This document shows, one piece after another, positions 52,896 through 55,848 of a stretch of 55,848 bases of DNA (positions are counted from its first letter, which is position 1; every line of letters begins with the position of its first letter). The notes below the pieces were generated by a model, which saw nothing but the letters and a program-made list of their open reading frames with translations, was not told where the DNA came from and searched no databases. The stretch comes from Bacillota bacterium (lineage in GTDB: Bacteria; Bacillota; Clostridia; Clostridiales; Clostridiaceae). The stretch spans positions 1-55,848 of the forward strand of contig JAJXWJ010000014.1 of NCBI GenBank assembly GCA_021781655.1, in the 5' to 3' direction. Made by a program: the position numbers and the translations under genes.

Positions 52896-53864
52896 TTAAT
52901 TTTTGATATTTATCGTTACTTCCTTTAAGCTTGTTTGTACATTATTATTTCCCGTTTCTCTTATTACTATAGTGTGGGTACCATTGCTTAGCTTTGTTGT
53001 ATCTAAGCTATAGTGATAGCCTCCATTTGTCGTGTTGTAGCTTGGAAATACATTATATACATCATTCCTTTGATCTCCATAGGTTGCTGTTCCTACTACA
53101 TTCCCATTTACTAAAACTTCAACCTTCTGCACTCCATAATCATCTAAAAACCATCCTCTTACTGTATTTATCCCACTTATTGTACTTCCATTTGTAGGTG
53201 TATCTATACAACCTATTGCATTATTTAGAACGGTTACTCTTACAGCATTTAAGCTTGTTTGTACATTATTATTTCCCGTTTCTCTTATTACTATAGTGTG
53301 AGTACCATTGCTTAGCTTTGTTGTATCTAAGCTATAGTGATAGCCTCCATTTGTCGTGTTGTAGCTTGGTAATACATTATATACATCATTCCTCTGATCT
53401 CCATAGGTTGCTGTTCCTACTACATTCCCATCTACTAAAACTTCAACCTTCTGCACTCCATAATCATCTAAAAACCATCCTCTTAATGTATTTATCCCAC
53501 TTATTGTACTTCCATTTGTAGGTGTATCTATACAACCTATTGCATTATTTATAACGGTTACTCTTACAGCATTTAAGCTTGTTTGTACATTATTATTTCC
53601 CGTTTCTCTTATTACTATAGTGTGGGTACCATTGCTTAGCTTTGTTGTATCTAAGCCATAGTGATAGCCTCCATTTGTCGTGTTGTAGCTTGGAAATACA
53701 TTATATACATCATTCCTTTGATCTCCATAGGTTGCTGTTCCTACTACATTCCCATCTACTAAAACTTCAACCTTCTGCACCCCATAACTATCTAAAAACC
53801 ATCCTCTTACTGTATTTATCCCACTTATTGTGCTTCCATTTGTAGGTGTATCTATACAGCCTAT
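52896..53864 (-). repeat. Three tandem 324-bp repeats encoding Ig-like modules
   Basis: Units at 53864-53541, 53540-53217 and 53216-52896 each encode about 108 residues beginning IGCIDTPTNGSTISGIN, then RGWFLDxYGVQKVEVLV and ending HTIVIRETGNNNVQTSL. The DNA is nearly identical between units; the last unit changes only in its final codons. Similar G-I-D-x-P modules occur in secreted clostridial proteins and look like Ig-like wall- or carbohydrate-binding domains. Confidence 0.85.
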
Positions 53865-54507
53865 TGGAGCTAAAATTTTAGTCCACTTAGCATAAAGTGT
53901 AATATTAGAATTTTCCATAGTAAAGCTACTATTAGCTAAATAAGTTGTCCCAGTCCCATCCTCTTTAGTATTCCATCCTGAAAAAACATAACCTGTTCTT
54001 ACTAAATTTCCTATATTACCATAAATTGAAACCTTATTTCCTGAAAGATATTCATTTGAATCAATAGGTACATTTCCTCCAGTATTACCATTTCCGTTGT
54101 ATGAAACATAGTAAGTTTGTGTATTTAAATTATCTATTGTAGTAATTAACTTCCAAGTATCTACTGAGCCAAGTCCAGTTACCATATCATAACCAAGCAA
54201 ACAAGAGTAATTGCCATTAGAACCACTCGTAATATCATTAAATACATTTTGATTTGACAACGAATATAAAATAGGATTAGCAAGACCTATAGGCTGCAGA
54301 CCATTATTTTTTCTAGCTTCATCGACTAATGAAAATATAGCTGCCCATTCTGGCGTTGAAGCACTTGTTCCTCCGAAATCATTCCATGAACCATTATAAT
54401 AAATTTGATAACCAGTATATGGATCTGCATCAAGAGAAACATCTGGAATCATTCTATTATTACTCAGATTTGTTACAGAACTTTGCCAATTAGGCTCAGA
54501 AAAAAAA
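52896..54507 (-). pseudogene. C-terminal part of a frameshifted sedolisin (S53) protease
   Basis: This part continues the S53 catalytic domain after the frameshift: SEPNWQ, then PDVSLDADPYTGYQIYY, the catalytic serine in DFGGTSASTPEWAA, and the calcium-site region FNDITSGSNG...GYDMVTGLGSVD. A Listeria/Bacteroides-type repeat follows (YYVSYNGNGNTGG, RTGYVFSGWNTKEDGTG, ITLYAKW), then three about 108-residue Ig-like repeats. An apparent ATG reading starts at 54533, but its first nine residues are out-of-frame noise. Without the upstream part it has no signal peptide and lacks the Glu/Asp of the triad, so it cannot act alone. Confidence 0.85.
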
Positions 54508-55767
54508 ACTACTTTCTCCCCCACCGCTACCATTACCGTTAATATCTAAACTCCATCCTGTTTCACTTGTAATCGCTCCTGTAGTACTATTTGTATTTAA
54601 CGAAGTTCCACCAATTGCAGTTACATAAGGATCAGATGCTGGATAATCAACTTCGCTACTACCATTATCTCCAGAAGCAATTACAAAAGTTATCCCTTTT
54701 GCAGCACCAGTCATAAATATATTATCCATTTCATTTATTTCCGCTTGACTATAGTAAGTTTCATCAATCCCCCATGAATAACTTACTACATTAGCCTGTC
54801 CATCATCTACTATTTGCGTAAACATATCAGTTTGAGTAACTGAATCTGGATTAGCTCCATCATAAACAAGTAGCTGGGCACCTGGTGCACTTGACAAGGC
54901 ACATTCTATATCCATGGTTGTTTCTGCAGAACCATTAATATCATATTGAGGTGTCCCATCTATCGGAACTATTTTTATAGCATTTGTTGGATTAATATTA
55001 AATCTATTCATAAAAAAATTGATATCATTTTGATTAAACGAGTAATATGAGGCTATAGCCAATTTTACTCCACTTCCATTTATATTATTAGAATAAGCAG
55101 TGGTCATATTATAAGCCTTCTGAATTTGACTAGGAGGGTAAACTTGTCCAATAACTTTTGATTTTATAGTAGTAAAATCACTCATTGAATTTTGTAATTT
55201 AAAATTATTTAAGCCATCAATATTTTCAACTAAACCTACAATATCAATTGGTAATTGTGGTTGATTACTATTTGCAAAAAACACCTGCCTATTTTTAGAA
55301 TAATAATTCAAGCTAACTTTAAATGCTGATTCTATTTCCTTTGCAGTTCCTTTTGCTTGTATTGACAAAAAGCTACTATATGTTTTACTTATTATTAGTC
55401 CATTACTTTGTAGAAAATTAATCAATTCATCCTGAGAATCTTTAGCTGGTAAATAGTTATTTTTTAAATCTTCACTACTTATTACCTTATTATATTTTTT
55501 TTCATTATGTGCATTTTGAATTATTTTCTTCAAAGTATTTTTGTTTCTGATTTTTAGTCCAATGGTTATAGTAAGTTCTTTGTTGTCCTCTACACTCCCT
55601 AATTTTTGCACGTTATTTTTATCTAAAAAGGGTAATACATTGCTATCTTGTAAGCATATATAATCATTTTTGAGATAATAGTTTTCTTCTCCTTTTACTG
55701 TACTGGATAGCGTAAATATTGATACTATAATTGCTGTTAAAATAAAAAATATCATTTGTTTTTTCAC
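54496..55767 (-). pseudogene. N-terminal part of a frameshifted sedolisin (S53) protease
   Basis: Secreted serine-carboxyl peptidase. Signal peptide about 1-26 (MKKQMIFFILTAIIVSIF), an activation pro-domain of about 160 residues (with FLQSNGLIISKTYSSFLSIQ), then the catalytic domain with E282 and D286 in AETTMDIECA and the oxyanion aspartate D367 in ASGDNGSSEVDYPASDPY. The reading stops at TGA just after GGGESSFFF, where the family continues S-x-x-F-x-x-P-x-W. The start is GTG at 55767, with GGAG upstream. One T fewer in the 9-T run restores a single protein with the C-terminal part. Reads as a pseudogene, a phase-variable gene or a sequencing error. Confidence 0.88.
54500..54508 (-). other. 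9-T homopolymer at the frameshift in the sedolisin gene
   Basis: Nine T residues on the coding (minus) strand. With eight, the frame reads SSFFSEPNW and joins both halves in the order expected for S53 peptidases. With nine it hits TGA at once. Confidence 0.85.
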
Positions 55768-55848
55768 TTTTCATCACTCCGTCATTTTGCCATTTTTAAA
55801 TGTATCAATATTTTATTTTCGGATAAATATAAAATATATTTAGTCAAA

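Follow-up and report, generated by a model that had tools for sequence, protein, structure and literature searches.

A kumamolisin-like protease gene interrupted at a run of nine Ts in an AT-rich clostridial genome

Organization of the sedolisin locus

The window, that is, the whole stretch of 55,848 nucleotides that was analysed, is one whole contig (28% GC) of a host genome of 3.71 Mb, assembled in 168 contigs and 97.7% complete. A gene for a kumamolisin-like S53 protease lies at the end of this contig (C159), its first codon 81 bases and its T9 run 1.34 kb from the terminus. The gene is made up of the following features:

55767 to 52896, minus strand: S53 sedolisin (kumamolisin-like) gene as a whole, one protein encoded in two frames
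55768..55780, minus strand: putative ribosome-binding site GGAGTGATGAAAA, identified by eye directly 5' of the GTG start
54496..55767, minus strand: 5' part of the gene, 423 aa from GTG, with its stop just 3' of T9
54500..54508, minus strand: T9 run with the frameshift, reading GAA AGT AGT TTT TTT TTC TGA in the upstream frame
52896..54506, minus strand: 3' part of the gene in the other frame, within an ORF of 545 aa (54533-52896)

The first frame starts with a hydrophobic N-terminus that by eye resembles a signal peptide, and continues with a Pro-kuma_activ pro-domain (PF09286, residues 52-189, E=4.5e-24) and most of the S53 catalytic domain, including E282, D286 and D367. In the second frame the catalytic domain is completed, with the serine of GGTSAS, and is followed by a tail composed of one Flg_new (List-Bact repeat) domain and three Ig-like Big_7 repeats, each 108 aa long. 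Membership in family S53 is indicated by the Pro-kumamolisin activation domain and by the Ser-Glu-Asp triad and oxyanion Asp, all of which are present but split over two frames in the assembly. The three Big_7 repeats (window 52896-53862) are near-alike in their DNA (pS 0.07-0.09, pN 0.02-0.05), which suggests that duplication or gene conversion has recently taken place in this part of the protease.

Immediately past T9, the first frame terminates with ...GGGESSFFF*. The second frame stays open across the run and reads on ...FFSEPNWQ..., matching the frame that eight Ts would give. Residues 63-422 of the first half match residues 38-413 of the kumamolisin pro-enzyme chain (E=7e-26), and residues 14-116 of the second half match residues 244-347 of the mature chain (E=8e-14), collinear with the first. 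To judge from the sequence, the frameshift in the assembly is genuine and the two halves have not come together by chance, since the halves are collinear with kumamolisin and the alignment to uninterrupted relatives runs straight across the junction. The preliminary description had reported a sedolisin gene broken by one T in a run of nine, with catalytic residues intact on both sides and halves that would join with eight Ts. Each of these points is borne out: the run is found at 54508-54500, the numbering of E282, D286 and D367 before the break is correct, and the GGTSAST serine follows in the second frame, together with the Flg_new and Big_7 repeats.

As assembled, translation ends before the catalytic serine, so that the encoded product consists of the pro-domain and an incomplete catalytic domain. 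A separate second gene starting from the internal ATG at 54533 was considered and rejected, because it would encode a protease fragment with neither pro-domain nor signal peptide.

The run lies in the middle of the gene, on the codons of S-F-F-S, a motif that is conserved in part, and it owes its existence to these codons in an AT-rich genome. It does not represent an excess, as the window holds two nine-base T or A runs, compared with a mean of 23 in dinucleotide shuffles. Such a scarcity would fit selection that removes slippery runs from coding sequence. The RNA structure predicted at T9 is not unusual (z = +1.4).

Uninterrupted relatives and the age of the lesion

Searches of the host's family and order returned two close relatives in all, both among the 206 genomes of the family, a set that holds one genome per species and in which the host is the only member of its genus. 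Both are single open frames with approximately 58% identity, one of 1174 aa (genome G149, C1:917785-) and one of 1034 aa (genome G150, Clostridium sp. MAG STD2_219, JAQUXS010000026.1). The catalytic domain and the Big_7-like tail resemble those described here, and G149 also possesses a Flg_new-like stretch. At the junction the two proteins read GSGGGSSSFFSTPSWQ and GSGGGISTSFSIPSWQ, respectively, and the DNA has T7 and T5, in contrast to the two frames and T9 of the host gene. The length of the run is therefore not conserved, which argues against a maintained tract. Among the genome contigs searched for same-species sequence elsewhere, only the G150 relative was matched, while the plasmids searched yielded only distant S53 genes. 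The genome of a further relative (G141:C25:123117-126323; L009, L016 and L017) carries three tandem S53-like catalytic domains.

Substitution rates are similar on the two sides of the break. In the comparison with G149, dN within the catalytic part amounts to 0.236 before the break and 0.249 beyond it, and in the tail to 0.29; G150 gives 0.247, 0.319 and 0.307 for the same three segments. Of the aligned sites, 26 of 224 before the break and 18 of 123 after it carry a change found only in the window gene, much as in the other two proteins, so that the downstream part shows no clear decay. No further stop or frameshift was found in the approximately 950 codons of the gene, in agreement with the earlier remark that little other decay is seen. 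These comparisons indicate that the lesion is probably recent or artefactual, because dN is similar on both sides and there is no second lesion. “Recent” is a coarse term here, as even the nearest relatives are only about 58% identical in protein sequence; given this distance and the near saturation of synonymous sites, the lesion is not closely datable.

Nine- and ten-base runs across the genome

The genome contains 134 A/T runs of exactly nine bases and 12 of ten. All 146 were located by a pattern search and then judged in their surrounding sequence. Seventy of them fall inside an ORF of at least 100 aa, mostly as A9 in the sense strand, and one of these ORFs is the second sedolisin frame. 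About 69 other runs, some 66 of them nine bases long, are located within unbroken ORFs; as ORF length rather than homology underlies these counts, single cases may be misclassed. Five frameshift candidates emerged. Two of them (L063 and L070) were rejected, being ordinary neighbouring genes, while three look like true frameshifts, namely sedolisin at T9 and two loci at A10:

L117, G000:C139:45281-48620, minus strand: A10 at 1827-1836 of the locus, in a split gene for a small membrane-anchored protein
L142, G000:C70:16001-19012: A10 at 1502-1511 of the locus, with an HD-CE gene followed by a PRTase-like segment in another frame

L117 belongs to an operon whose gene order looks PilM/PilN-like by eye, with an efp-like gene close by and an Xaa-Pro aminopeptidase gene after it, and shows a faint match to PilO (E=0.039) that is below the cut-off. 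At L142 the HD-CE domain matches PF24391 (E=3e-22) and no start codon is found near the junction, so that the locus looks like a second homopolymer frameshift; a homology check in 38 other genomes returned no relatives. The HD-CE and PRTase-CE families of Pfam are linked to conflict (defence) systems.

Of the runs inside ORFs, those of nine bases number about 67, with one broken gene, and those of ten bases about five, with two. With about 69 runs in unbroken ORFs and three broken genes, a T9 is common and usually harmless in this genome. This is the distribution that sporadic slippage produces, whether in the cell or during sequencing, as it becomes more frequent in longer runs, and it differs from that of a genome with a set of contingency genes.

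Interpretation and comparison with known systems

We favour, with moderate confidence, the explanation that recent slippage has added one T to a gene which is intact in all other respects and encodes a secreted S53 protease of the kumamolisin type; an evolved switch need not be invoked. The base would have been gained in a T run made by codons, and the insertion would be a simple loss-of-function mutation that arose recently in the sequenced strain, its short product presumably inactive. The assembled sequence would be compatible with a real mutation, an assembly error, a mixed population or leaky rescue by transcriptional slippage. The run could revert by replication slippage at some rate, as could any T9, and by analogy with other bacteria, RNA polymerase slippage may yield a little full-length protein. 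Reversible slippage of this kind is expected at any T9 and by itself is not phase variation.

A sequencing or assembly error, the other option raised in the preliminary description, in which case the real genome would keep the frame at the run and the gene would be intact, is a less probable alternative. The absence of any other lesion in the gene and its position at a contig end in an assembly of 168 contigs are both consistent with an error, as is the fact that the other two broken genes of the census also lie at long A runs. The roughly 66 other nine-base runs that stay in frame, however, show that run-length errors at nines are rare in this assembly, and a mechanical scan of 439 kb revealed no crowd of homopolymer frameshifts. 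Homopolymer errors throughout the assembly are accordingly unsupported.

The preliminary description had also put forward slipped-strand phase variation of the protease. The protein is predicted to be secreted and bears repeats, its catalytic residues are intact, a T9 is prone to slippage, and A/T-run frameshifts are known in surface genes such as the poly(A) tract of Listeria inlA (PMC2831843). An evolved switch is nevertheless improbable. The run is neither kept in the relatives, which have T7 and T5, nor longer than the genome background, as nine-base runs are ordinary in the intact ORFs of the host; it sits mid-gene on the S-F-F-S codons; and among the nine-base runs of the census it is the only one that breaks a gene, and no family of switch-like genes was seen. 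We regard as still less probable the stronger proposal that T9 is a high-frequency on/off switch of acid-protease secretion, with like breaks at A10 in pilus-like and defence-like genes. A search of the open-access literature returned no paper that contains both “sedolisin” and “phase variable”.

Programmed slippage, whereby RNA polymerase or the ribosome would slip on U9 to give a fixed share of full-length protein as in Shigella mxiE, appears very unlikely. Runs of nine serve in this way in other bacteria (PMC1088944), and the downstream frame shows no relaxed constraint, but a recent mutation accounts for that constraint equally well. Neither G149 nor G150 has two frames or a T9, so that neither the two-frame layout nor the run of nine is conserved in the homologues, and the RNA at the run has no unusual structure. 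By analogy, a low-level leak through slippage is plausible, while a slippage programme is not. The least probable reading is that of an old pseudogene under decay, which the preliminary description had likewise disfavoured and which we reject: the frame is broken in the assembly, but the catalytic residues are kept, dN is similar on both sides, and neither another stop nor another frameshift is present.

An AT-rich genome can be expected to have an occasional frame that is broken at an A/T run of nine bases, and such a break alone does not demonstrate phase variation. In annotations, we suggest describing the gene as an S53 protease with a frameshift, from which full-length product may still arise at a low level.

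The protein shares with kumamolisin and sedolisin (MEROPS family S53; PDB codes 1t1e, 1gt9 and 1ga1) the pro-domain, the ExxxD motif, the oxyanion Asp and the GGTSA block, in a collinear arrangement over both halves. It differs from kumamolisin in being encoded in two frames and in having its catalytic domain followed by Flg_new and Big_7 repeats. In Listeria monocytogenes inlA, reversion from A6 to A7 was measured at approximately 5.5e-7 (PMC2831843). Both inlA and the sedolisin gene have a frameshift at an A/T run in a gene for a surface or secreted protein, but in inlA the variation was shown among strains and measured, and the poly(A) run is near the 5' end, whereas the sedolisin run is in the middle of the gene. 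Contingency loci are generally credited with higher rates than that of inlA reversion.

A further resemblance is to the “pseudo-pseudogenes” described by Baranov et al. (2005; PMC1088944), in which a frameshift that turns a run of eight into a slippage-prone run of nine As or Ts can leave some functional product. In the assembled sequence the sedolisin gene has the same layout, with a one-base insertion that gives a nine-base run and a remainder that is intact. The case is an ordinary one.
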